From Microbacterium esteraromaticum (GTDB taxonomy: Bacteria > Actinomycetota > Actinomycetes > Actinomycetales > Microbacteriaceae): a DNA stretch of 64,000 bases. The stretch covers positions 558,001 through 622,000 of the forward strand of contig NZ_CP043732.1 in NCBI RefSeq assembly GCF_014084045.1, given 5' to 3'. The notes below the pieces were generated by a model. It saw only the letters and a program-made list of their open reading frames with translations. It searched no databases and was not told where the DNA came from. A program made the position numbers and the translations under genes. Below, piece after piece: positions 4,352 to 22,989 of the stretch (positions are counted from its first letter, which is position 1; each line of letters starts with the position of its first letter).

Positions 4352-5398
4352 CTAGCGCGCGACGACCCCGATCCGCGGCGCGGCATCGGGCGCGGCGGCG
4401 AGTGCGATCGCCTGGTCGAGGTCGGCGAGGGGATGCACGGTGCCGACCATCTCGGCGAAGGGGAACGCCCGTCCCCGTCCGGCGAGGAAGGCGACCGCGT
4501 CGGCGAGCTCGGCGCCGGTGTAGTTGTGCACGCCCGTCACCGTGATCATCCGTCGCACCATCGATTCCGCGTCCAGCGGGACTGGGTCGGCGGGGAAGAC
4601 GCTGCCGATAAGCACCACCGTTCCGCCGACGGCGACGTCCGAGATCGCGGAGGCGACAGCGTGTCCCGATGCCTCGATGGCGATCTCGGGATCGGCGGAG
4701 GAGGCATCCGGCTCGGCGCCGAAGCGCGTCGCGAGACGCCGGCGCGCGGCGTTCGGGTCGACGACGTCGACGACCGCCCCCTCCGCCGCGGCGATCGCGA
4801 CCGCCGACAGCCCGACCAGCCCCGCGCCGTACACCCGCACCCGCACGCCGTCGAGGTCGCGTCCGGCCGCGCCGCGGCGCACGGCAGCGTACGCGGTCGC
4901 CGTGGCGCACGAGGCGGGCGCGAGCGCCGTGGCGGGCAGAGCCTCGGGCACGCGCACGATCGTCGTGCCCCGGCGCAGCTGCACGTGGCTCGCGAAGGCT
5001 CCGGTCAGCTCACGATGCGGGGCGACCCTCTCGTGGCCGTACTTGCCGAGCTCGCGGCACTTCTGCGTCATCCCCGCCGCACAGCGGTCGCACGTCCCGC
5101 ACGAGACGGTGACCGACCACACCACGCGGTCGCCGATGCGCAGGGGCGTGCCGTCTTCGGCGTCCGCGCCCGACTCTCCCAGCGCGATCACCCGGCCGAC
5201 GCTCTCGTGGCCGAGGACGAGCGGCACGGGCGCGGATCTGCGCCCGTGCACGGTGTGCACGTCGGAGCCGCAGATCGTCGACAGCTCGACGGCCACGAGC
5301 ACGTCGTCGGCTGCGAGGGCGACGCCGGGCACGGCGATGGTCTCGTGCGGATGCCCTTCGCCGAGGAACGCCATGGCGACGGCCGACGGGCGGAGCAC
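4352..5398 (-). CDS. Zinc-dependent alcohol dehydrogenase of the phosphonate operon (TIGR03366 type)
   Basis: About 348 residues of the medium-chain dehydrogenase family. Visible are the catalytic zinc site (CGSDVH and GHESVG), the structural zinc loop (CGTCDRCAAGMTQKC) and the NAD-binding strand VRVYGAGLVGLSAVA. It closes an operon with phosphonate import and a phosphonatase-like enzyme, which fits the group proposed to handle an alcohol or aldehyde product of phosphonate breakdown. The start is uncertain: GTG at 5398 gives the usual family length, with AGGAGGAG 15 bases upstream; a GTG at 5473 just past the previous stop is the alternative. Confidence 0.8.
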   Translation of the reverse strand: MLRPSAVAMAFLGEGHPHETIAVPGVALAADDVLVAVELSTICGSDVHTVHGRRSAPVPLVLGHESVGRVIALGESGADAEDGTPLRIGDRVVWSVTVSCGTCDRCAAGMTQKCRELGKYGHERVAPHRELTGAFASHVQLRRGTTIVRVPEALPATALAPASCATATAYAAVRRGAAGRDLDGVRVRVYGAGLVGLSAVAIAAAEGAVVDVVDPNAARRRLATRFGAEPDASSADPEIAIEASGHAVASAISDVAVGGTVVLIGSVFPADPVPLDAESMVRRMITVTGVHNYTGAELADAVAFLAGRGRAFPFAEMVGTVHPLADLDQAIALAAAPDAAPRIGVVAR

Positions 5399-5474
5399 GA
5401 CGTCGGTGCGCGTCTCCTCCTGCGGATCAGGGCGGTGCGTCAGCGACGGTGCTGGCGCGAGCAGCGGGCGCACC

Positions 5475-6176
5475 TCAGCTCGCCGCAGCGGTGAGCAGCT
5501 CGCGAGCGGCGAGTGCGTCGTGCAGATCGACGACGCTCGGCAGTGCGGCATGGGCACCCGCGGCGAGGAGCGCGTCCGCGGCGTGCGCCCCGGTGAGCAC
5601 CCCGGCCACGAAGCCGGCGCCTGCGCGCAGTCCCGAGCGCACGTCGCTGACCGTGTCGCCGGCGACGGCGACGGCCTGCACCGACGACGTGCCCGTGCGC
5701 ATCAGCGCGGTCAGCACGAGGTCGGGGTGCGGGCGTCCGCGGCCGGCATCCACCGGAGACAGGGCGACGTCGATCAGGTCGCGCCAGCCGAGGGCATCCA
5801 GCAGCGCGTCGCGCGTGACGGGAGCGAAGCCGGTGGTCAGCGCGACCCGGGCGCCGTCCGCCTTGAGCCGCTCGATCGCGGCGCGAGCGCCGGGGATCTC
5901 CTCGGCTCCGTGCTCTGCGACGATCTCGTCGTAGGCGCTCTCGAACGCGGCCGTGGCTCGTTCGGCGGCGGCGCGGTCGCCGCCGGAGAGGTGGGTGAAG
6001 ACCTCGATCTTCGACTGTCCCATCGTGTCTCGCACGTACTGCAGAGCGTCGTCCCACGGCATCCGGTCGGCGACGCCGGTGCGCTCGGCTGCGCGCTGGA
6101 ACGCCTGCTCGACGACGCCGTCGTCGAGGACGGTCGTGCCTGCCATGTCGAGGACGACGAGTTCGATGCTGGTCAT
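5475..6176 (-). CDS. Phosphonatase-like HAD hydrolase (TIGR03351 type)
   Basis: 233 residues of the haloacid dehalogenase superfamily. The nucleophile motif is LDMAGTT (Asp10), the cap region has MGQSKIEVF with Lys56 in the place of the Schiff-base lysine of phosphonoacetaldehyde hydrolase, and the metal motif is AGDTVSDV near residue 180. In this operon it is the obvious candidate for C-P bond cleavage of an activated phosphonate such as phosphonoacetaldehyde. The ATG overlaps the stop of the FAD oxidoreductase (ATGA). The Lys56 match is by eye; if wrong, the enzyme would be a plain phosphatase. Confidence 0.85.
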   Translation of the reverse strand: MTSIELVVLDMAGTTVLDDGVVEQAFQRAAERTGVADRMPWDDALQYVRDTMGQSKIEVFTHLSGGDRAAAERATAAFESAYDEIVAEHGAEEIPGARAAIERLKADGARVALTTGFAPVTRDALLDALGWRDLIDVALSPVDAGRGRPHPDLVLTALMRTGTSSVQAVAVAGDTVSDVRSGLRAGAGFVAGVLTGAHAADALLAAGAHAALPSVVDLHDALAARELLTAAAS

Positions 6177-7315
6177 GAGAGAGCCTCCGTGAGGGTGGTG
6201 GGGATGAGTGCGTCGGCCATGGCGGATTCGGCGAGGCCGAGTCCGCAGGTCATGCCGATGCCTGTGGTGGCGGCGATCACGATGACGCCGTCTGCGGGCG
6301 TCTCGCGCAGGAACTCCTGCGGGCCGGACGCGTACACGCCCTGCCATCGCTCGAGCACACGCACGCGGTCGACGTCGAAGAGCTCGACCGCCTCGTCGAG
6401 GAACGACTCGAACGCGGCCTCCGGCTGGAACGGACCGGGCTGGACTGCTTTGGCGTGCGAGTCTCCGAGGATCAGCGAGCCGTCGGGCAGCTGCGTGTAC
6501 ATCTGGTTGAGGTCGAGCGCGGCGAGCTCGGGTCGCTGAGCATGCAGCCTGCGGCGCAGGGCGGCGGTCTCGTCGAGGGCCGCGAAGCGGCCGTAGCGCA
6601 CGAGAGACCACCCGGTCAGCAGTGGCGCCTCGAGCGGGCCAGGCAGGTCGGCCGCGACGCGCATCATGTCGAGCGTGCAGCGCACGATGCCGACGCGCTC
6701 GGCGATCTCGGGCATCAGCTGATCGATGTCGTGGTTGACCGCGACGACGACCTGGCCGGCATCGATCGGGCCGCGGGTCGTCTCGATCCGGCCCGGCACG
6801 ACGGCCGTGACCGACGTCCGGAAGCGGAAGCCGACCCCGGCGGATGCCAGGTGACGCACGATGGCGCCCACGGCCTCGCGCGGGTCGACCTGCAGGTCGG
6901 GCGCGATCACGGCACCGCCGCGCAGCGCCTCGGGGCGCAGCGGAGCGCGGCGAAGCACCTCGTCGGCGTCGATCAGGCGGATGTCGCCGCGGCCGTCGCG
7001 CGTCGCCGCGTCGAGCACGGCCAGCTCGTCGTCGTGCCTGGCGGCGATGAGGGTGCCGGATTCGCGGAGCCAGAATCCGGCATCCGTCGCCAGGCGCAGC
7101 CAGAGCTCGCGGGCGAGGTCGGCGTACTCCCTCGCCTCGCCCGTCTGAGCGCCGATGCACAGGTGGCCGAAGTTGCGGATGCTCGAGCCCACCGGCGTCT
7201 CGGTGCGGTCGACGACGATCACGCTCAGCCCGCGGCGCACCGACGCATACGCCGCGCCGAGACCGACGATGCCCGATCCGACGACGACGACGACGTCGGC
7301 CCGCGCCGCGCTCAA
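6173..7315 (-). CDS. FAD-dependent oxidoreductase of the phosphonate operon (TIGR03364 type)
   Basis: 380 residues of the DAO family (glycine/sarcosine oxidase-like). The N-terminal dinucleotide fold is VVVVVGSGIVGLGAAY (Gly13, Gly15, Gly18), followed by RNFGHLC, where many DAO members attach or contact FAD. The C-terminus carries the second FAD contact ATTGIGMTCGLGLAE. The TTG start at 7315 overlaps the stop of the permease gene (TTGA), so it is coupled to it. Members next to phosphonate transporters are thought to oxidise an amino- or N-methyl-aminophosphonate to phosphonoacetaldehyde, the substrate of the HAD enzyme that follows. Confidence 0.85.
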   Translation of the reverse strand: MSAARADVVVVVGSGIVGLGAAYASVRRGLSVIVVDRTETPVGSSIRNFGHLCIGAQTGEAREYADLARELWLRLATDAGFWLRESGTLIAARHDDELAVLDAATRDGRGDIRLIDADEVLRRAPLRPEALRGGAVIAPDLQVDPREAVGAIVRHLASAGVGFRFRTSVTAVVPGRIETTRGPIDAGQVVVAVNHDIDQLMPEIAERVGIVRCTLDMMRVAADLPGPLEAPLLTGWSLVRYGRFAALDETAALRRRLHAQRPELAALDLNQMYTQLPDGSLILGDSHAKAVQPGPFQPEAAFESFLDEAVELFDVDRVRVLERWQGVYASGPQEFLRETPADGVIVIAATTGIGMTCGLGLAESAMADALIPTTLTEALS

Positions 7316-9045
7316 CGGAACACCTTCCGCATCCACATCGCGAGGCCTTCGACGGCGAGCACGGTGACCAGGATCATGATCACGATGCTGGCGACGAGGG
7401 GGTAGTTCGAGCCCTGGCCCGCGTTGAGCAGGTAGTAGCCGACGCCGCCGCCCCCGACGATGCCCAGCAGGGTCGCCGCCCGCACGTTGGTGTCGAGCAT
7501 GTAGAAGGTGTGCCCGATCAGGGCGCGTGAGCCCTGCGGGAAGGTCGCCGCGGCGTACATCTGCAGGCGGGTCGCTCCGGTGGCGAGCAGCGCGCGCTCC
7601 GGTCCGCGCGGAACCTCTTCGAACGAGTCGGCGATGAGCTTGCCGAGCAGCCCGATCCCTCCGATCGCGAGCGCGATGGTGCCTGCCTGCGGACCGAGGC
7701 CCGTGATGATGATCAGCACGATCGCGAGGATCAGTTCGGGGATGCCCCTGATGATCACCAGCAGCAGCCGGAACCCGCCCTGGGTGGCGCGGTTCGGTGC
7801 CACGTTGCGCGCGGCGAACGAGCCGATCACCAGGGAGAGCACCAGGGTGATGAGCGTGGCTGCGAGGGCGATCCTGATCGTGTCGAGCATCGCGGCGCCG
7901 ATGACCTCGAAGCCGTAGCTGCCGAAGTCCGGCGGCCAGAACTGGGCGGCGACCTCGGGGATGCGCACCCAGAAGGTGAGGAGGTCGCTCCACACGATCT
8001 CGCTCACGACCACGGAGGCGACGACGACGAGCACCGCGATCCAGCCCGCGATGGCGCTGCGCACCCGCTGAGCCGTCCACGGTCGGTGAAGTGCCTCCTC
8101 GACGCTCGCGAACCGGCGCGTCGTCGGCGCGGCGTGTGCCGTGCGGCTCTTCCTGGTGAGCAGCCGCACGAAGACGCCCTTGCCTGCATCCTTCTCCCCC
8201 AGCATCGACACGCGCACGGCGCTGGAGATGATCTCCATGGCCACGCAGAGCAGGAAGATGACGAGGGCGTACCCGAGACCGAGTCCGTAGTTCAGCGATT
8301 TGAACGCGTGCGACATCTCGAGACCGAGCCCCGCGACGCCGACGTAGCCGAGAACGACCGAACCGCGCAGATTGATGTCGTTGCGGTGCAGCACGGTGGC
8401 CACCCAGCTGGGCAGCACCTGCGGCAGCACGCCGGCGAAGAACTCCTGCGAGCGGGTGCCTCCCGCGGCGCGGATGGCGAGGCGGGGACCCTCGTCGATC
8501 TGCTCGATCGCGTCGGCGAACATCTTCGAGATCATGCCGATCGAGTGAATGCCGATCGCGAGGATGCCGGGCAGCGTGCCCAGCGAGAACATCAGCACGA
8601 ACACCATCGCGAGCACCACGTCGGGCAGCGCACGGGTGAAGACGCCGATGAAGCGGGCGACCCCGCGCAGCGTGTGGTGCGGGGTCGTGTTCGATGCCGC
8701 GAGATACGCGATGGGCACGGAGAGCGCAGCGGCGAGCAGGGTGCCGGTGAGCACGAGACCGACGGTGAGCACGGTGAGCTCGAGCAGCTCGGCGGGCTCG
8801 GGGAACCGCAGCCCGCCGACCCGGGCGAAGAAGTTCTGCGCGTTGCCGAGGCTGTCGCCGATGCTGGCGAGGCTGATCTGCAGGTCGATCAGTGACATCA
8901 CCGCGACGACCGCGATGACCGCGAGCGTCAGCGAGGCGCAGATGCGCTCGGGGCTGAGACGCCGACGCGGGGCGCGAGCGAAGATGTCGTCGCCGTGGGC
9001 GGGTGCGCCGGCGGCGGACTCGGGGCGCGTGGCGGCGATCGTCAT
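7312..9045 (-). CDS. phnE: Phosphonate ABC permease, PhnE-PhnE fusion
   Basis: 577 residues, about twice the length of a normal PhnE. It contains two complete permease domains, at about residues 30-275 and 335-575, each with a coupling motif (EQIDEGPRLAIRAAGGTRSQEF and EEVPRGPERALLATGATRLQ). Both carry the PhnE-like HSIGM.SKM.ADAIE or GIGLLGKLIADS segment. Many phosphonate importers use two permease copies; here they are one polypeptide. It overlaps the ATPase gene upstream and the oxidoreductase downstream by four bases each. Confidence 0.9.
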   Translation of the reverse strand: MTIAATRPESAAGAPAHGDDIFARAPRRRLSPERICASLTLAVIAVVAVMSLIDLQISLASIGDSLGNAQNFFARVGGLRFPEPAELLELTVLTVGLVLTGTLLAAALSVPIAYLAASNTTPHHTLRGVARFIGVFTRALPDVVLAMVFVLMFSLGTLPGILAIGIHSIGMISKMFADAIEQIDEGPRLAIRAAGGTRSQEFFAGVLPQVLPSWVATVLHRNDINLRGSVVLGYVGVAGLGLEMSHAFKSLNYGLGLGYALVIFLLCVAMEIISSAVRVSMLGEKDAGKGVFVRLLTRKSRTAHAAPTTRRFASVEEALHRPWTAQRVRSAIAGWIAVLVVVASVVVSEIVWSDLLTFWVRIPEVAAQFWPPDFGSYGFEVIGAAMLDTIRIALAATLITLVLSLVIGSFAARNVAPNRATQGGFRLLLVIIRGIPELILAIVLIIITGLGPQAGTIALAIGGIGLLGKLIADSFEEVPRGPERALLATGATRLQMYAAATFPQGSRALIGHTFYMLDTNVRAATLLGIVGGGGVGYYLLNAGQGSNYPLVASIVIMILVTVLAVEGLAMWMRKVFR

Positions 9046-9854
9046 GCCACGGGCTCCGCGACCCTCAGTTCGGCCTCGAGCGTCTGGATCTCGGCCGTGC
9101 TGGTGGCGACGCGGCCGTAGATCTCCATGACCTGCGCCTTGTCGAGGCCGGAGGTGGTGGTGTCGAGCACCACCTCGCCGTGACGCAGGCCGACGATGCG
9201 GTCGGCCCAGTCGATGGCCAGGTCGACCTGGTGCAGACTGCACAGCACGGTCAGTCCGTCGTCGGCGGCGATCTCGCGGATGAGCGCCATCACCTGCGAG
9301 CTCGACTCCGGGTCGAGCGAGGCCACGGGCTCGTCGGCGAGCAGCACCTCGGGATTCTGCATGAGAGCCCTGGCGATCGCCACCCGCTGCTGCTGACCGC
9401 CGGAGAGGGTGTCGGCGCGCTGGTACGCGCGGTCGAGCAGACCGACGCGGTCGAGATGCCCGAGGGCGCGCAGCTTGTGCGCGCGGGAATAGGCGAACAG
9501 CCCGAGCCGAGGTCCGCGGAGCCCGGCGAGCGAGCCCGCGAGCACGTTCTCCAGCACGGAGAGCGAGCCGACCAGCTCGAACTGCTGGAAGATGAAGCCG
9601 ACGCGGCTGCGGAGACGGCGCAGGGCTCGGCCGCGCAGCGCCGGCACGTTCTCGCCCAGCACGCTGACGCGGCCGCCGGTCGGGGTCTCGAGGGCGTCGA
9701 TGTGACGCAGCAGGGTCGACTTGCCCGAGCCGGAGAGGCCGAGCAGCACGACGATCTCACCGCGGTCGACGGTGAGGTCGACGCCGGACAGCGCTGTGGT
9801 CGAGTCGAAGCGCTTGGTGAGCGAGTCGATGCGGACGACGGTTTCAGGGCTCAT
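9042..9854 (-). CDS. phnC: Phosphonate ABC transporter ATPase
   Basis: 270 residues with all ABC ATPase motifs: Walker A GLSGSGKST (residues 39-47), Q-loop around Gln90, signature LSGGQQQR (150-157), Walker B LLADEP (171-176) and the switch histidine in LCSLHQVD. The insert with SRAHKLRALGHLDRVGLLDRA is characteristic of PhnC-type ATPases. It powers the PhnE fusion and shares its operon with PhnD. ATG at 9854; the stop overlaps the phnE start (ATGA). Confidence 0.93.
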   Translation of the reverse strand: MSPETVVRIDSLTKRFDSTTALSGVDLTVDRGEIVVLLGLSGSGKSTLLRHIDALETPTGGRVSVLGENVPALRGRALRRLRSRVGFIFQQFELVGSLSVLENVLAGSLAGLRGPRLGLFAYSRAHKLRALGHLDRVGLLDRAYQRADTLSGGQQQRVAIARALMQNPEVLLADEPVASLDPESSSQVMALIREIAADDGLTVLCSLHQVDLAIDWADRIVGLRHGEVVLDTTTSGLDKAQVMEIYGRVATSTAEIQTLEAELRVAEPVA

Positions 9855-9882
9855 GTCTGTTCTCTCTTCGTGCGGGCGGGCT

Positions 9883-9912
9883 GGGGGCGCCACGTGAGAA
9901 CGTGACGCCCCC
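9883..9912 (-). terminator. Hairpin between phnD and phnC
   Basis: GGGGGCG-C-CACGT and its complement around a GAGA loop form a strong stem in the 148-base gap between phnD and phnC. It may stabilise the phnD message or partly terminate transcription, so that the binding protein is made in excess of the membrane parts. No T-run follows. Confidence 0.5.
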
Positions 9913-10002
9913 GCATCTCGACTCCGCGGCTTCGCCGCGTCGCTCGATGACCGTTCCGACGGGCGCAACGCGGCGTCGCCGCGGGGCTCGTCGGTCAGGG
10001 CA

Positions 10003-10929
10003 TCAGGACTGGCACTGGGTCGCGTTGGTCTTCTTGCAGATGTCGCGGATCAGGTCGTAGTACTCGTCGTCGACCGGCTTGGTGGCGTAGAACACCGAGC
10101 GGAACGCGTCGGAGTCGGCGCTCTCGATGCCCGCGGCGATGATGTCGTCGATGGTGACCTCGGCGAGCGAGTCGGTCAGCACGGTGACGACGTCTTCGGG
10201 GAGGGTGTTGGAGTAGACGAGCGGGGCGCCGGGGACCATGGTCTCGGCGACGACCTTCACCTTGTCGGACTTCGCGGCCTCGCTGTCTTCGGCGAAGCCC
10301 ACCTCGCACTCCTTGCCCTCGCCGGTCTTGGCGACGCTGACGTCGTGCTTGCCTGCGAACACCGGGGTGATGTCCTTCTCGGGGTCGATGCCCGCTTCGA
10401 GCAGGTTGTACGAGGGGAACAGGTAGCCGGAGGTCGACGACGGGTCGACGAAGCAGACCTTCTTGCCCGCGAAGTCCTCGATTCCGTCGACGTCGGAGCC
10501 TGCGGGTGCGATGGCCTGGGAGTAGTAGCCGGGCTCCTGGCCCTCCTTGGTCACGATCGACGAGATCGGGGTGAGCTCGGCGCCGTTGTTGGTGGCGGTG
10601 ACGTAGGTGAAGCCCGAGAACGAGGCGACGTCGACCTTGCCTGCGATGGCGGCCTCGATCAGGGCGGCGTAGTCGGTCGACTCGTGGTACTCGACCGACT
10701 TGCCCGTCTTCTCGGCGATGTAGTCCATCAGCGGCTGGTAGTTGGTCTCGGTGTCGACCGAGTCGGGCACGACGCCGAACACGAGGGTGTTCTCGTCGAC
10801 CGCGTAGCCGCCGGCCTTGTCGGCGGGTGCGTCACTGCCTGGCGCCGCACCGGCGGGGCCGGAGCATGCGGCGAGGCCGAGCGCCAGCAGGGCGGCGCCG
10901 GCGATGGCGGGGAGAGCACGAAGCTTCAT
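10003..10929 (-). CDS. phnD: Phosphonate-binding lipoprotein
   Basis: 308 residues. The N-terminus is a lipoprotein signal (MKLRALPAIAGAALLALGLAAC), with Cys22 as the lipid anchor. The mature part is a type II periplasmic-binding fold of the PhnD/PtxB group, with VFGVVPDS, YMDYIAEKTGKSVEYHESTDYAALIEA-like N-lobe elements, and the CFVDPSSTSGYLFPSYNLLEAGI hinge typical of phosphate and phosphonate analogue binders. It is the first gene of the operon and is divergent from the GntR gene. Confidence 0.9.
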   Translation of the reverse strand: MKLRALPAIAGAALLALGLAACSGPAGAAPGSDAPADKAGGYAVDENTLVFGVVPDSVDTETNYQPLMDYIAEKTGKSVEYHESTDYAALIEAAIAGKVDVASFSGFTYVTATNNGAELTPISSIVTKEGQEPGYYSQAIAPAGSDVDGIEDFAGKKVCFVDPSSTSGYLFPSYNLLEAGIDPEKDITPVFAGKHDVSVAKTGEGKECEVGFAEDSEAAKSDKVKVVAETMVPGAPLVYSNTLPEDVVTVLTDSLAEVTIDDIIAAGIESADSDAFRSVFYATKPVDDEYYDLIRDICKKTNATQCQS

Positions 10930-11101: not shown

Positions 11102-11845
11102 GTGTCCCGAGCTGTGTACATCGACATCGCCGACGATCTGCGTGCGCGGATCGCGTCAGGCGAACTGCGCCCTGGTGACGACGTGCCGACCGAGGCCGAG
11201 CTCGCCGAGCGGTGGCAGACCTCGCGCGGTCCCATCCGCAACGCCCTCGCGGCGCTGCGCTCCGAGGGCCTGGTCGAGACGACGCGCGGACGCCCCGCGA
11301 GAGTCGTCTCGGTGAAGGCGACGCAGGCCGTCGACATGTCGGTGCCCTTCACGCGCTGGGCTCGCGACCTCGGCCTGGAGCCGGGAGCGCAGACCCAGGA
11401 GGTGAGCCTGCGCCGCGCCGCCGAACTGGCGGAGCCCCTCGGCATCGCCCCCGAGGGGCAGATCGTGAGCGTGCTGCGGCTGCGGCTGCTCGACGGACGC
11501 CCCACGATGGTCGAGCGACTGAACTACACCGAGGACGTGGGGCGCCTGCTGTTCCAGGTCGACACCGACGCGGTGTCGATCACGGAGTACCTCGGCTCAC
11601 ACGGGCATCCGATCGTCGGCGTGCAGCACGAGATCGACGCCATCGCAGCCGACGAACGCGATGCCGCCCTGCTGCGTGTGCCGCAGGGCACCCCGCTGCT
11701 GAGGCTGAGCCGCATCTCTCGCGACGCGGACGGCCGCGTCTTCGAAGCCTCGCAGGACCGCTACCTCGGCGACGTCGTCCGCTTCACCGTCGCGGGCTCG
11801 GGCATCGCCGCCGACGGCCAGTACCTGCGGGCCGTCGGCGGCTGA
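11102..11845 (+). CDS. GntR-family regulator with UTRA domain, probable phosphonate regulator
   Basis: 247 residues. The N-terminal winged helix-turn-helix (about 1-70) has the GntR pattern IADDLRARIASGELRPGDDVPTE followed by LAERWQTSRGPIRNALAALRSEGL. The C-terminal part (about 85-240) is a UTRA effector domain with FTRWARDLGLEPGAQTQ and VQHEIDAIAADERDAALLRVP. It is divergent from the phosphonate operon, so a phosphonate metabolite is the likely effector. The GTG start lacks a clear ribosome binding site; a leaderless message or the GTG four codons downstream is possible. Confidence 0.85.
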   Translation: MSRAVYIDIADDLRARIASGELRPGDDVPTEAELAERWQTSRGPIRNALAALRSEGLVETTRGRPARVVSVKATQAVDMSVPFTRWARDLGLEPGAQTQEVSLRRAAELAEPLGIAPEGQIVSVLRLRLLDGRPTMVERLNYTEDVGRLLFQVDTDAVSITEYLGSHGHPIVGVQHEIDAIAADERDAALLRVPQGTPLLRLSRISRDADGRVFEASQDRYLGDVVRFTVAGSGIAADGQYLRAVGG

Positions 11846-11992: not shown

Positions 11993-12856
11993 TCAGAGTG
12001 CGATCAGCACTACTCCGCCGACCACCACGACCGAGGCCGCCACTCGCCACGCTGGCCGCGATTCGCGCAGCACGAACGCGCCGAACAGGCTCACCAGCAC
12101 CACGCTCACCTCGCGCAGCGGCGCGATGAGCGCCACCGGTGCGAGCGTGATCGCCTGCAGGACGAGGATGTACGACAGCGGCGAGAGGATGCCGAAGGCG
12201 AGGATCCGCCGCCACTCGCGGCGTCCGAGCTCGCGCACGACACCCCACCTGCGGCGCACGACGATCGTGTAGAAGGGCAGCTGCGCCAGCGTCGTGCCCA
12301 CCATGAATGCGACCGGCGACAGACTCCACTCGCGCACGGCATGCGCGTCCCAGATCGTGTACGTCGCGATCATCACCCCGGTGAGCAATCCGAACAGCAC
12401 GGCCGGGTCGATGCCCCGTCGTTCGCCCGCCGCGGGCCTGTCGACGAAACCAACGGCGACGACGCCGACGATCACCAGCCCCACGCCGATCAGCGCCGCA
12501 GGCGACGGTCGCTCGCCGAGCAGCAGCATGGCCACGATGACCGCGAGGAACGGGCCGCTGCCTCGCGCGGTCGCGTAGACGGTCGAGAGGTTGCCCAGCT
12601 GGTACCCGCGCTGCAGCACCGACATGTACAGCACGTGCAGCACCGCCGAGACGGCGACGCCGAGCGCGAAACCGGCGATGTCGTCGGTGCCGAGCCCTCC
12701 CGTGAACGGGATGACCCCGATCCACAGCATCGTGCTCGCGACGGCACCCCACCACAGGAAGGGCGCGCCGGCGCGGCTCACGTTGTGCGCGATGACGTTC
12801 CAGGCGGCGTGCGCGACAGCGGCGCCGAGCGCCAGGACGATGGCTAGGACGGACAT
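11993..12856 (-). CDS. EamA/DMT-superfamily transporter under a ykkC-type riboswitch
   Basis: 287 residues with ten hydrophobic segments in two EamA halves (about 1-140 and 150-287). The halves show AHAAWNVIAH and ARGSGPFLAVIVAMLLLGERPS in the first, and ITLAPVALIAPLREVSVVLVSLFGAFVLRES in the second. It resembles inner-membrane metabolite exporters. The 5' leader contains a ykkC-family aptamer, whose guanidine-I class typically controls guanidine exporters and carboxylases. An export role for guanidine or a related compound is therefore inferred. The ATG at 12856 is chosen because it begins the first membrane segment; a longer frame runs through the riboswitch and is rejected. Confidence 0.85.
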   Translation of the reverse strand: MSVLAIVLALGAAVAHAAWNVIAHNVSRAGAPFLWWGAVASTMLWIGVIPFTGGLGTDDIAGFALGVAVSAVLHVLYMSVLQRGYQLGNLSTVYATARGSGPFLAVIVAMLLLGERPSPAALIGVGLVIVGVVAVGFVDRPAAGERRGIDPAVLFGLLTGVMIATYTIWDAHAVREWSLSPVAFMVGTTLAQLPFYTIVVRRRWGVVRELGRREWRRILAFGILSPLSYILVLQAITLAPVALIAPLREVSVVLVSLFGAFVLRESRPAWRVAASVVVVGGVVLIAL

Positions 12857-12891
12857 CCGAAGACCCTTCTGCCCGCCGCGGGCGCGACGAA

Positions 12892-12992
12892 CGGGTCCTC
12901 CAGGCTTTTGTCCGTTCAGATGACGGCCCCGCCGCGGGGCGATGCCGTGGCGCCGCTCGGACCAGTCGGGCGGATGCCCCGGAACCCTAGGC
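12892..12992 (-). promoter_or_regulatory. ykkC-family riboswitch (guanidine-I type likely)
   Basis: The minus-strand leader of the EamA gene holds, in order, CCTAGGGTTCCG (12991 to 12980), GACTGGTCCGAG (12967 to 12956), ACGG, and GGACAAAAGCC (about 12913 to 12903) followed by TGGAGGA. This order and spacing are the hallmark conserved blocks of the ykkC aptamer. Downstream, GCGCCCGCGGCGGGC before the start codon can form an expression-platform hairpin. Assigning guanidine rather than the ppGpp or PRPP variants of ykkC needs alignment of the subtype-specific positions. Confidence 0.85.
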
Positions 12993-13079
12993 GCTGTCGA
13001 CACCCACCCTAACCGCTCCGCCGCGGCGAGGCATCCGCCCGCCCGTCATCAGCTGCGCGCCGCCGCGGGCGACGCTCAC

Positions 13080-13154
13080 CGAGAACAGGAGATCACGCGA
13101 GAACAGGCCCTTACACGAGATTCCAGCCTGTGCTCGCATTTTCTCCTGTTCTCG
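13080..13154. repeat. Interspersed palindromic repeat, copy B
   Basis: CGAGAACAGGA at 13080-13090 pairs exactly with TCCTGTTCTCG at 13144-13154. An additional GAGAACAGG arm lies at about 13099. The inner segment ATTCCAGCCTGTGCTCGCAT is close to copies A and C. It sits in the 365-base gap between the EamA leader and the M18 peptidase. Confidence 0.6.
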
Positions 13155-19964: not shown

Positions 19965-20819
19965 ATGGCCACCGGCGACAACGAACGCACGCTCGAAGAC
20001 GGCATCGTCACCGACCTCAAGGATCGGATGACCTACGGGTCGTACCTCGACCTCGACCGGCTCCTCAGCTCTCAGCATCCGGTCTCGCAGCCCGAGCACC
20101 ACGACGAGATGCTGTTCATCATCCAGCACCAGACGACCGAGCTCTGGCTCAAGCTCGTGCAGCACGAGCTGGGCACAGCGCGTGACCGCCTCGCCGACGA
20201 CGACCTGCGTTCGGCGCTCAAGCACATCGCCCGCGTCAAGCACATCCAGGAGGTGCTGACGCAGCAGTGGTCGGTGCTCGCCACCCTCACTCCCACCGAG
20301 TACGCGCAGTTCCGCGGCGACCTGGGCAATTCGTCTGGCTTCCAGTCGGTGCAGTACCGCGCTGTGGAGTTCGCGCTCGGCAACAAGAACGAGCGGATGC
20401 TCAGCGTCTTCCGTGATCACCCCGAGAACCTCGCCATGCTCACCGCCGAATGGGAGCGCCCGACCCTGTACGACGAGTTCCTGCGCTACGCCTCGCGCCG
20501 CGGTCTGCCCATTCCGCAGGAGATCCTCGACCGCGACGTGCGCCAGCCCTACCGCGAGCACCCCGAGCTCGTGCAGGCGATCCGCGAGATCTATGAGCAC
20601 CCCCACGAGCACTGGGACCTCTACGAGGCCTGCGAGGAGCTCGTCGACGTCGAGGACAACTTCCAGTTCTGGCGCTTCCGTCACCTGCGCACCGTCACTC
20701 GCACCATCGGCATGAAGGTCGGCACCGGCGGCTCCAGCGGTGTGAGCTTCCTGCAGCGGGCACTGGATCTGACGTTCTTCCCCGAGCTCTACAGCGTGCG
20801 CACCGAGATCGGCCGCTGA
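19965..20819 (+). CDS. kynA: Tryptophan 2,3-dioxygenase
   Basis: 284 residues, standard length. It converts L-tryptophan to N-formylkynurenine with haem and O2. Motifs: MTYGSYLDLDRLLSSQHP, DEMLFIIQHQTTELWLKL, FRGDLGNSSGFQSVQYR and the C-terminal GTGGSSGVSFLQRAL. The cytoplasmic tetrameric enzyme starts the kynurenine route; the following two genes are adjacent with gaps of 0 and 1 base. The ribosome binding site is weak (CAGG), so the message may have a very short leader. Confidence 0.95.
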   Translation: MATGDNERTLEDGIVTDLKDRMTYGSYLDLDRLLSSQHPVSQPEHHDEMLFIIQHQTTELWLKLVQHELGTARDRLADDDLRSALKHIARVKHIQEVLTQQWSVLATLTPTEYAQFRGDLGNSSGFQSVQYRAVEFALGNKNERMLSVFRDHPENLAMLTAEWERPTLYDEFLRYASRRGLPIPQEILDRDVRQPYREHPELVQAIREIYEHPHEHWDLYEACEELVDVEDNFQFWRFRHLRTVTRTIGMKVGTGGSSGVSFLQRALDLTFFPELYSVRTEIGR

Positions 20820-21761
20820 ATGCGGTCGGTCACGTTCTTCGACGGAGAGGGCCTGCGCGAGGGCACGGTCGTCGCGCGCGACCGCGCGCCGCAGCTGTTC
20901 GACAGGCCCGCGCCTGCCGGCACGGCGCGCCTCGACGGCGTGGTGACCGGGCTCTTCACAGACCACCACGTGCATCTGCAGCTCGTCGATCACGCGCTGC
21001 TGGCGGCCTCACGGCTCGGCCGGGTGGTCGATCTCGGCGCCGATCCGAACTGGATCTCCGACGTCCCGGGCCCGGTCGTCGTCGGCTATGCCGGTCCCTT
21101 CCTCACCGCGCCAGGCGGCTATCCCTCGGATCGGGCCTGGGCGCCTCCGGGTTCGGTGCGGGAGATCCCGGATGCCGAGCACGCCGCTCGTGCGGTCGAC
21201 GAACTCGCCGCATTCGGAGTGTCGTTCATCAAGGTCGTCGCGCACGGCGAGGCCGGCCCCGTCCTCGACGATGACGCCTTCCGTGCTGTCGTGCGTCAGG
21301 CGGCCGTGCATCGCATACCCGTCGTTGCGCACGCCGAGGGCCGTGGTCAGGCGCAGCGCGCTGTGCGCCTCGGCGCCACCCGCCTCGCGCACGCCCCGTT
21401 CAGCGAGCCGTTGAGCGATGCCGAGATAGCGGCTCAAGCGGCATCCGCGTCGTGGATCTCGACCATGGCCGTCCACGACGGCGCGGCGCGTTCGATCGCC
21501 GTCGACAACGTGCGCCGGTTCGCCGCCGCCGGAGGCGAGATCCTCTACGGCACCGACATGGGCAACGGGCCCACCCCCGTCGACCTGCGCGAGGCCGAGG
21601 TCGACGCGCTGCGCGCCGCGGGCATCGACGGGGTCGACCTGCTGGCATCCCTCTCCCCCGCCGACCCGCTCGACGGCGGCCCCCTGCTTCTGCTTCCCCA
21701 CGGCGATCCGAACCGGGCTCGCCGCCTGACCCTCGCTGACATCGACATCACGGAGCCGTGA
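20820..21761 (+). CDS. Amidohydrolase-superfamily protein in the kyn operon, candidate formylkynurenine formamidase
   Basis: 313 residues starting immediately after the kynA stop. Metal-dependent amidohydrolase features: DHHVHLQ (the HxH motif), SFIKVVAHGEAGP with a possible bridging lysine, VVAHAEGRGQ, RLAHAPFSE, and the metal aspartate in LYGTDMGNGP. The pathway needs a formamidase between kynA and kynU, and neither a KynB-type (cyclase-like) nor an alpha/beta-hydrolase formamidase is present here. Position and fold make this protein the best candidate for that step. The function is inferred from context only. Confidence 0.7.
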   Translation: MRSVTFFDGEGLREGTVVARDRAPQLFDRPAPAGTARLDGVVTGLFTDHHVHLQLVDHALLAASRLGRVVDLGADPNWISDVPGPVVVGYAGPFLTAPGGYPSDRAWAPPGSVREIPDAEHAARAVDELAAFGVSFIKVVAHGEAGPVLDDDAFRAVVRQAAVHRIPVVAHAEGRGQAQRAVRLGATRLAHAPFSEPLSDAEIAAQAASASWISTMAVHDGAARSIAVDNVRRFAAAGGEILYGTDMGNGPTPVDLREAEVDALRAAGIDGVDLLASLSPADPLDGGPLLLLPHGDPNRARRLTLADIDITEP

Positions 21762-21762
21762 C

Positions 21763-22989
21763 ATGACCGACATCACCGCCGACCTGCTCGCCGAGGCCCG
21801 CAAGCTCGACCAGGCCGATCCGCTCGCCCATCACCTCAGCGCGTTCGCCGACGCTCCTGGCGTCGTCGCATACCTCGACGGCAACTCCCTCGGCCGACCG
21901 CTGCGCGACCTGCCCGAGAAGGCGGCCGCGTTCATCCGCGACGACTGGGGCACGCGGCTGATCCGCTCGTGGGACGAGCAGTGGATGGCGCTGCCGATGA
22001 GCCTCGGCGACCGGATCGGCGCGATCGCCCTGGGCGCCGCGAAAGGACAGACCGTGGTCGCCGACTCGACCAGTGTGATGCTCTACAAGCTCATGCGGGC
22101 TGCGATGGCGGCGCGCCCCGGCCGCAGCGAGATCGTCATCGAGGCGGGCAACTTCCCCACCGACCGCTTCATCGCCGCCGGGGTCGCGAACGAGACCGGC
22201 GCGACGCTGCGCTGGGTGGAGCCCGACCCGATCTCCGGCGTGAGCGCAGAGCAGGTCGCCGCCGCGGTGTCCGAGCGCACTGCGCTCGTCGCGCTCAGCC
22301 ACGTCGACTACCGCTCGGGCTCGCTCGCGCAGATGCCCGAGATCACCGCCGTGGTGAAGGATGCCGGCGGGCTGATGCTCTGGGATCTGTGCCACTCCGT
22401 CGGCGTCGTGCCCGTGCAGCTCGACGAGTGGGGCGTCGACATGGCGGTCGGGTGCACCTACAAGTACCTGAACGGCGGGCCGGGCTCTCCCGCTTTCGGC
22501 TACCTGCGGGCCGAGCATCACGGCGCCGTGACGCAGCCGATCCACGGCTGGTGGGGCGCGGCCGACATCTTCGCGATGGGACCGGAGTACGCCCCGGTCG
22601 CGGGCATCCGGCAGCTGCTCAGCGGCACCCCTCCCGTGCTGTCCATGCTCGCGATGCAGGGCATGCTCGACCTGATCGAGGCCGAGGGCATCACCGCCCT
22701 CCGGGCGAAGTCGATCACGCTCACCGACTTCGCGATCCGCGCCTACGATGCGCTGCTCGCCCCGCTCGGCGTGCGACTGCTGTCGCCGCGCGAGGCGTCG
22801 CGCCGTGGCGGGCACGTGACCATCGGGCACGACTCGTTCCAGGAGGTCACGAAGCGGCTGTGGGCCGACGGCGTGATCCCCGACTTCCGGTTCCCCGACG
22901 GCATCCGCCTCGGCCTGTCGCCCCTGAGCACCTCGCACGAGGAGACCCTGCGCGGTGTCATCGCCGTGCGCGACGCGCTGCAGTCATGA
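21763..22989 (+). CDS. kynU: Kynureninase
   Basis: 408 residues of the PLP-dependent class V aminotransferase fold. It cleaves kynurenine to anthranilate and alanine. Motifs: YLDGNSLGRPL near the N-terminus, the cofactor region VADSTSVMLYKL, LWDLCHSVGVVPVQL with the PLP-binding aspartate, and the Schiff-base lysine in GCTYKYLNGGPGSPAF. The C-terminal RLGLSPLSTSHEE is typical. It starts one base after the amidohydrolase stop and overlaps the PaaX-like gene by four bases, if that gene starts at 22986. Confidence 0.95.
   Translation: MTDITADLLAEARKLDQADPLAHHLSAFADAPGVVAYLDGNSLGRPLRDLPEKAAAFIRDDWGTRLIRSWDEQWMALPMSLGDRIGAIALGAAKGQTVVADSTSVMLYKLMRAAMAARPGRSEIVIEAGNFPTDRFIAAGVANETGATLRWVEPDPISGVSAEQVAAAVSERTALVALSHVDYRSGSLAQMPEITAVVKDAGGLMLWDLCHSVGVVPVQLDEWGVDMAVGCTYKYLNGGPGSPAFGYLRAEHHGAVTQPIHGWWGAADIFAMGPEYAPVAGIRQLLSGTPPVLSMLAMQGMLDLIEAEGITALRAKSITLTDFAIRAYDALLAPLGVRLLSPREASRRGGHVTIGHDSFQEVTKRLWADGVIPDFRFPDGIRLGLSPLSTSHEETLRGVIAVRDALQS

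Follow-up and report, generated by a model that had tools for sequence, protein, structure and literature searches.

The leader RNA in front of an EamA/DMT transporter gene of Microbacterium esteraromaticum belongs, as a new member, to ykkC subtype 2d, an orphan riboswitch class, and this combination of RNA and gene has already been published. It was found in a 64,000-nt stretch of contig NZ_CP043732.1, the whole of which is referred to as the window. We consider it likely that this 2d leader acts as a translational ON switch of an EamA exporter, responding to a compound from the aminophosphonate pathway of Microbacteriaceae rather than to guanidine. According to the accessible parts of the literature, EamA genes (phn_DUF6) are targets of subtype 2d, a class of unknown ligand (PMC7266159, PMC5912903), as are TauE genes (PMC7266159), and a small, charged and toxic compound was proposed as its ligand in 2018 (PMC5912903). 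Newly added to subtype 2d are an expression platform, a promoter position and a tie to one group of PbfD enzymes in Microbacteriaceae, as well as a second group, variant in its core and associated with a different EamA family. The features of the window are collected in Table 1.

Table 1 Features of the riboswitch locus and its gene neighbourhood (window coordinates)
Feature	Position	Strand	Basis
HpnZ, phosphonate-associated alcohol dehydrogenase, start approximate	4352..5557	-	TIGR03366, 343.4 bits, cut-off 328.1
PhnX-like HAD hydrolase	5475..6167	-	TIGR03351, 218.9 bits, equal to its cut-off
PbfD-type FAD oxidase (predicted)	6173..7294	-	TIGR03364, 356.9 bits (358.9 in the family-wide search), cut-off 285.1
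PhnE permease, two stretches in one ORF, start approximate	7312..9243	-	TIGR01097, 411.3 bits
PhnC ATPase, start approximate	9042..9968	-	TIGR02315, 293.2 bits, cut-off 266.1
PhnD-type substrate-binding protein	10003..10929	-	TIGR01098, 156.8 bits, cut-off 112
GntR/UTRA regulator, PhnF-like, divergent from phnD	11102..11845	+	TIGR02325, 96.7 bits, below cut-off 156.8
EamA/DMT transporter gene, 287 aa, controlled gene	11993..12856	-	PF00892
Platform helix 3' strand GGGUCU, overlaps Shine-Dalgarno	12861..12866	-	covariation
Shine-Dalgarno-like GAAGG	12865..12869	-	sequence, spacing to ATG 12856
Platform helix 5' strand GGACCC, its GGA also the aptamer 3' end	12893..12898	-	covariation with 12861-12866
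ykkC-type aptamer, assigned to subtype 2d from its J2/3 signature and the gene it precedes	12896..13001	-	RF00442, covariation
P3 hairpin GGACAAAAGCC	12903..12913	-	RF00442 match, homologue alignment
J2/3 signature CAUCUGA	12916..12922	-	alignment to RF00442 consensus
P1 3' strand GGCGC	12950..12954	-	alignment, covariation
P1 5' strand GCGCC	12990..12994	-	alignment, covariation
-10-like box TAGGGT (predicted), first base 10 nt upstream of aptamer position 1	13006..13011	-	sequence

The original prediction of a ykkC-type RNA before an EamA/DMT gene was borne out on the minus strand, where all ykkC blocks it had named are present in order. RF00442 matches window positions 13001-12896 over model positions 1-107 with 47.0 bits, equivalent to E-values of 2.1e-7 for the 451-nt piece searched and 3.8e-7 for the whole 3.37-Mb genome, in which it is the sole match at E ≤ 0.001. 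The match is thus significant and covers the full model, though a default Rfam scan is silent on this aptamer because 47 bits fall short of the gathering score of 63. The span of 12856-12995 given originally does include the expression platform down to the start codon, but omits the first few aptamer nucleotides. With R1, a covariance model built from Microbacteriaceae homologues, the window aptamer, itself part of the R1 training set, scores 108.7 bits.

Searches of 249 Microbacteriaceae genomes with RF00442 detected the RNA in 24 of them, one copy each, in agreement with the R1 search. As none of these RNAs reaches the Rfam cut-off, routine annotation overlooks all 24. In their alignment the core hardly varies; P1 belongs to this conserved part, as does CGUCAU...GGA.A.AAGCC in the 3' half. 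The helices carry compensatory changes, such as C-G to U-A at P1 pair 9-61 in three of the 24 homologues. Two-sided changes amount to 45 cells against a mean of 13.6 in shuffled alignments (0 of 500 shuffles as high), and nine pairs have a two-sided change against a shuffled mean of 6.3 (9 of 500 as high), in a shuffle control of 24 sequences which keeps no relatedness. Hence, that the leader is merely a decayed or chance ykkC-like sequence devoid of function, for which its score under the Rfam threshold could be quoted, is barely credible in view of the compensatory changes, the near-invariance of the core across 24 genomes, the genome-wide E-value and the conservation of platform and promoter.

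A 336-aa ORF running from GTG 13003 through the RNA was rejected, since the start codons of relatives coincide with ATG 12856. An inverted repeat of approximately 65 nt (window 13084-13150, AACAGGAGA ... TCTCCTGTT), possibly a bidirectional terminator, is located between the riboswitch promoter and the ORF beyond it; miRNA models match it spuriously on both strands. Accordingly, mir-3622 and other weak Rfam matches at this place were discarded as chance family matches to an inverted repeat.

The window RNA shares P1, P2, P3, the CUAGGGUUCCG and CUGGUCCGAG blocks and the AAAAGCC loop with guanidine-I riboswitches (RF00442, subtype 1), but differs from them in its score, in its target gene and in J2/3, where alignment to the RF00442 consensus (CAC-GG) places CAUCUGA instead of CACGG. 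The ACGG block listed in the original prediction is indeed present, as the P2 5' strand and again before the P3 loop, yet it is not the guanidine-I J2/3 CACGG, which is absent from its expected position. Among the 24 Microbacteriaceae members, J2/3 reads CAUCUGA in 20, CAUCUCA in three and CAUUCGC in one (L022 of genome G096, which has a deviant core and was retained in all counts), and CACGG in none. An unselected sample of 396 genomes of the phylum contained 17 with an R1 match, and by-eye assignment of J2/3 classes, with the downstream ORFs in view, gave nine CAYCUNA, six CACGG and two RNAs without core. EamA or TauE was found downstream of all nine CAYCUNA RNAs, of none of the six CACGG RNAs and of neither coreless one (tblastn with four queries; four Microbacteriaceae checked separately). 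Loci L061 and L062 (34 and 30 bits) were set apart, as the ykkC core is absent by eye.

Thus, a guanidine-I riboswitch governing an EamA-type guanidine exporter is very unlikely here because the guanidine-I consensus segment of J2/3 is replaced. Such a switch would agree with the same fold, with RF00442 as best Rfam match and with the placement of phn_DUF6 proteins and guanidine transporters in one superfamily, as stated in the accessible text of PMC5912903. CACGG is, however, missing from all Microbacteriaceae members, EamA and TauE are missing behind the CACGG-type RNAs of the phylum sample, and subtype 2 is separated from guanidine binders by pocket changes according to the available passages of PMC7266159. 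With both J2/3 and target genes differing, the guanidine-I assignment was rejected, and of the two ligands initially proposed, that of a ykkC variant class is the better choice and guanidine the improbable one.

A pattern scan of a genome collection, blind to the downstream gene, returned at least 120 stretches; since the pattern was derived from RNAs already found, class size is not countable from this number. The 120 stretches listed comprise 113 distinct 55-nt cores, four of them shared with the Microbacteriaceae set, and include the repeats L070 (= L051) and L150 (= L060). Five of the 120 have at most 192 nt downstream and 115 are therefore assessable; in all 115 assessable loci among the matches listed, the CAYCUNA RNA precedes EamA or TauE. 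EamA is the next gene in 105 of the 120 listed loci, of which 94 are best matched by the window protein and 11 by a second family, while TauE is next in 10 (Pfam was applied to two of them; for L073 the match spans just 32 residues). The window gene is EamA by Pfam (PF00892, 67.3 bits against a cut-off of 28.2) and thereby of the kind expected downstream of subtype 2d, EamA/phn_DUF6-type or TauE. Over its whole length, its best NCBIfam model is TIGR03340 (phn_DUF6), but because its 114.9 bits are far below the cut-off of 288.15, it was not filed as a TIGR03340 equivalog.

The assignment to subtype 2d is made from the J2/3 signature and the associated genes. The accessible descriptions of published 2d RNAs (PMC7266159, PMC5912903) agree with the window RNA in EamA (phn_DUF6)/TauE targets and ykkC architecture and place the subtype nearest to guanidine-I, from which it departs around the pocket; no difference was found in this comparison by description. 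The riboswitches for ppGpp (2a), PRPP (2b) and (d)NDP (2c) have the ykkC scaffold in common with it, but are described in the sources at hand as controlling amino-acid, purine and NUDIX/HAD genes, unlike the target in the window, and were set apart by target genes alone.

A TAnnnT box begins 9-10 nt before aptamer position 1 in all 24 Microbacteriaceae homologues, and judging from this -10 box, transcription would start at or near the first aptamer nucleotides. The start codon ATG 12856 sits 39 nt past the aptamer, and a six-pair helix can form between the aptamer 3' edge and the Shine-Dalgarno region. This helix is fully paired in 83 of 98 loci whose 3' end reads GGAGGA, compared to 33% when partners are swapped between loci of different 5' strand; after removal of duplicates, 74 of 89 loci remain fully paired against 31.5% in the swapped control. 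Helix types include GGACCC/GGGUCC, GGAACC/GGUUCC, GGAGCC/GGCUCC, GGAUCC/GGAUCC and GGAACU/AGUUCC, and only in a GGACCG group of eight loci are just five of the six pairs formed.

A covarying helix over the Shine-Dalgarno sequence suggests a translational ON switch. Without ligand, GGACCC at the aptamer 3' edge would pair with GGGUCU and cover the Shine-Dalgarno sequence, a step backed by the covariation of this helix. Ligand binding would then retain the conserved 3' GGAGGA in the aptamer and leave the ribosome-binding site free, whereby the EamA transporter would be switched on. We infer this ON direction from the arrangement of the leader. In favour of the reverse case, in which the platform helix forms with ligand and eamA is shut off, direction is unreadable from sequence itself and the EamA protein could be an importer. 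This reverse case is nonetheless improbable: validated ykkC classes turn genes on, according to the passages seen of PMC7266159, and the Shine-Dalgarno-covering helix uses aptamer nucleotides, which fits mutually exclusive pairing and hence an ON switch.

All 24 Microbacteriaceae RNAs lie directly upstream of an EamA homologue, and the 23 homologues other than that of the window share 43-72% identity with the window protein (in G106, EamA is split over two overlapping ORFs). The transporter can stay where the RNA is absent, as in G045, where an EamA protein of 62% identity occupies the same operon place without a ykkC core (L270, 12541-11669). In the window, eamA is followed by a PhnF-like regulator gene in opposite orientation and, behind this, by an operon in the order PhnD-PhnC-PhnE-PbfD-type-PhnX-like-HpnZ-type. 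By score, the window oxidase belongs to the PbfD family TIGR03364 and is predicted to be such an enzyme. According to the available text of a study published in 2023, PbfC and PbfD enzymes oxidise N-methyl-aminoethylphosphonate to phosphonoacetaldehyde and methylamine, and one oxidase of that study is annotated TIGR03364 (PMC10590968). phnD and phnC are found on the same strand within approximately 6 kb downstream in 17 of the 24 carriers, and eamA is solitary in the other seven. Two Microbacterium loci, L065 and L127, have RNA, eamA, pbfD, a phnX-like gene and a dehydrogenase gene on one strand with no phnDCE in between, and about 140 nt separate the eamA and pbfD ORFs in L127; this array is a candidate riboswitch-controlled catabolic operon. 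Elsewhere in the window (19965-22989), ORFs resembling tryptophan 2,3-dioxygenase, amidohydrolase and kynureninase stand in a row by eye.

The co-occurrence of this RNA with PbfD in Microbacteriaceae is a new result. TIGR03364, the N-methyl-aminoethylphosphonate oxidase family, scores over its cut-off in 68 of the 249 genomes, and these include all 24 RNA carriers, but only 44 of 225 non-carriers (Fisher p 9e-16). Stratification by the 14 genera with carriers (54 genomes, 30 PbfD-positive, 24 carriers) still leaves an exact p of 7.5e-7; residual relatedness within genera is ignored here, as in the comparison of PbfD groups below. In a PbfD tree with 70 rows, which represent all 68 genomes with two of them twice and are rooted for drawing only, a branch of 100/100 support divides off 42 rows, among which are 23 of the 25 carrier rows; the two remaining carrier rows both originate from G208. 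The RNA is present in 23 of 41 genomes of that PbfD group (18 lack it) and in one of 27 other PbfD genomes (p 4.9e-6, for a grouping chosen after the labels were seen). Reconciling the RNA label with the well-supported branches of the tree takes no fewer than 10 changes, so that the pairing recurs and does not reflect one inheritance. Part of the association is co-inheritance, as RNA and operon are linked in 17 of 24 carriers. Linkage is not the whole explanation either, because six of the seven solitary-eamA carriers encode the same PbfD group elsewhere in the genome. PhnC and PhnX-like proteins of these six share 71-78% and 53-61% identity, respectively, with those of the window, and three of the six (G050, G175, G224) belong to one genus.

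Outside the family, the link is incomplete. PbfD exceeds its cut-off in 24 of 44 non-Microbacteriaceae genomes behind named 2d loci, which were picked by name among 80 listed loci, leaving out L115 (unclassified), L117 (L116 record series) and L143-L182. The corresponding 16 of 396 genomes in the phylum sample are not lineage-matched to these 44, for which kinship and completeness are not given. Within the phylum sample, PbfD occurs in four of nine RNA carriers, all four being Microbacteriaceae. Genus g91 of this sample has PbfD in five of its 11 genomes and an R1 match in none. Sorted by target, one of 10 genomes tested of the EamA_B group and two of six of the TauE group are PbfD-positive. 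The PbfD-negative carriers number 25 (20 out of the set of 44, and five phylum-sample genomes; 24 distinct, as G596 and G643 give identical matches), and among them PhnE is over cut-off in 10, PEP mutase in two, and PhnW and PhnX-like in none. All four markers are under cut-off in 14 of the 25, although five of those 14 come near one marker cut-off (G647, G650, G651, G655, G663). Given this incomplete link and the PbfD genomes without RNA, PbfD is neither sufficient nor universally needed, and a universal phosphonate requirement of subtype 2d is contradicted by the PbfD-negative, marker-negative carriers.

Searches by blastp with the window operon proteins, HpnZ excepted, did not find a window-type operon beside EamA_B and TauE loci, with a gene caller that drops some genes, and nothing consistent was seen in the surroundings of the TauE loci. 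By eye, the TauE-type 2d RNA L106 of Mycolicibacterium sphagni lies between purL-like and purF-like ORFs, and L183, of the same type, is preceded by a rhodanese-like ORF. Beside L125, likewise by eye, are an SsuA-like binding protein, a permease and a luciferase-like monooxygenase. One MAG series holds two 2d-type RNAs, one before EamA and one before TauE (L116 and L117), so that a single genome may use both EamA and TauE exporters.

The second EamA family (EamA_B; L051, L054, L058, L063, L070, L078, L081, L090, L092, L103, L107, L130, L134, L179) also occurs in Anaerolineae and Bipolaricaulota and is preceded by RNAs with variant cores, e.g., CACCUCA...GCCUCGAG or CACCUGA...GCCGGGAG. Its member at L070 is TIGR00950-like, below cut-off. 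This second group with its variant core possibly represents a separate specificity. Nine further loci (L083, L091, L123, L124, L132, L143, L155, L156, L162) have an ORF of VOC/glyoxalase fold behind eamA, in the same orientation. The cluster of VOC-fold ORFs has 10 members, one being in L141 at +5.8 kb, and the five loci with listed names are from Amycolatopsis or Saccharopolyspora. The one member tested resembles the fosfomycin-resistance transferases FosA/FosK only weakly.

Taken from the co-occurrence, the ligand would be a small compound other than guanidine which the PhnDCE/PbfD/PhnX-like pathway of Microbacteriaceae either takes up or generates, and we infer that the EamA transporter most likely exports it. 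More tentatively, and with rather modest confidence, the 2d ligand could be a substrate, intermediate or by-product of PbfD-type aminophosphonate oxidation which phn_DUF6-type EamA proteins export, with EamA_B maybe a further specificity class. Candidates would then be N-methyl-2-aminoethylphosphonate, phosphonoacetaldehyde and methylammonium; for RNAs with TauE targets, a closely related sulfonate might take their place. Somewhat short of an even chance is that the 2d ligand is a general toxic metabolite unrelated to phosphonates and that the transporter merely travels with the phosphonate island of Microbacteriaceae. Such a ligand would suit the 14 PbfD-negative 2d genomes with none of the four markers over cut-off, the mostly PbfD-negative EamA_B and TauE groups and the blastp result for their surroundings, but sits less well with the solitary-eamA carriers that encode the same PbfD group elsewhere and with an association that survives genus stratification. 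A general metabolite made by one pathway in Microbacteriaceae, or a compound admitted by several importers, is possible as well.

In the accessible part of a 2020 review, subtype 2d is the only ykkC class still lacking a ligand (PMC7266159). Subtype 2d is not mentioned in the passages searched of later reviews, and titles and abstract openings of the literature found, most subscription papers being outside reach, contain no report of its ligand. The activity reported in 2023 for an enzyme annotated as TIGR03364 (PMC10590968) postdates that review. While co-occurrence yields a ligand shortlist and not the ligand, this dependency, seen across genomes, on a single group of enzymes narrows a search without bounds to a few compounds that can be tried on a readily prepared RNA.
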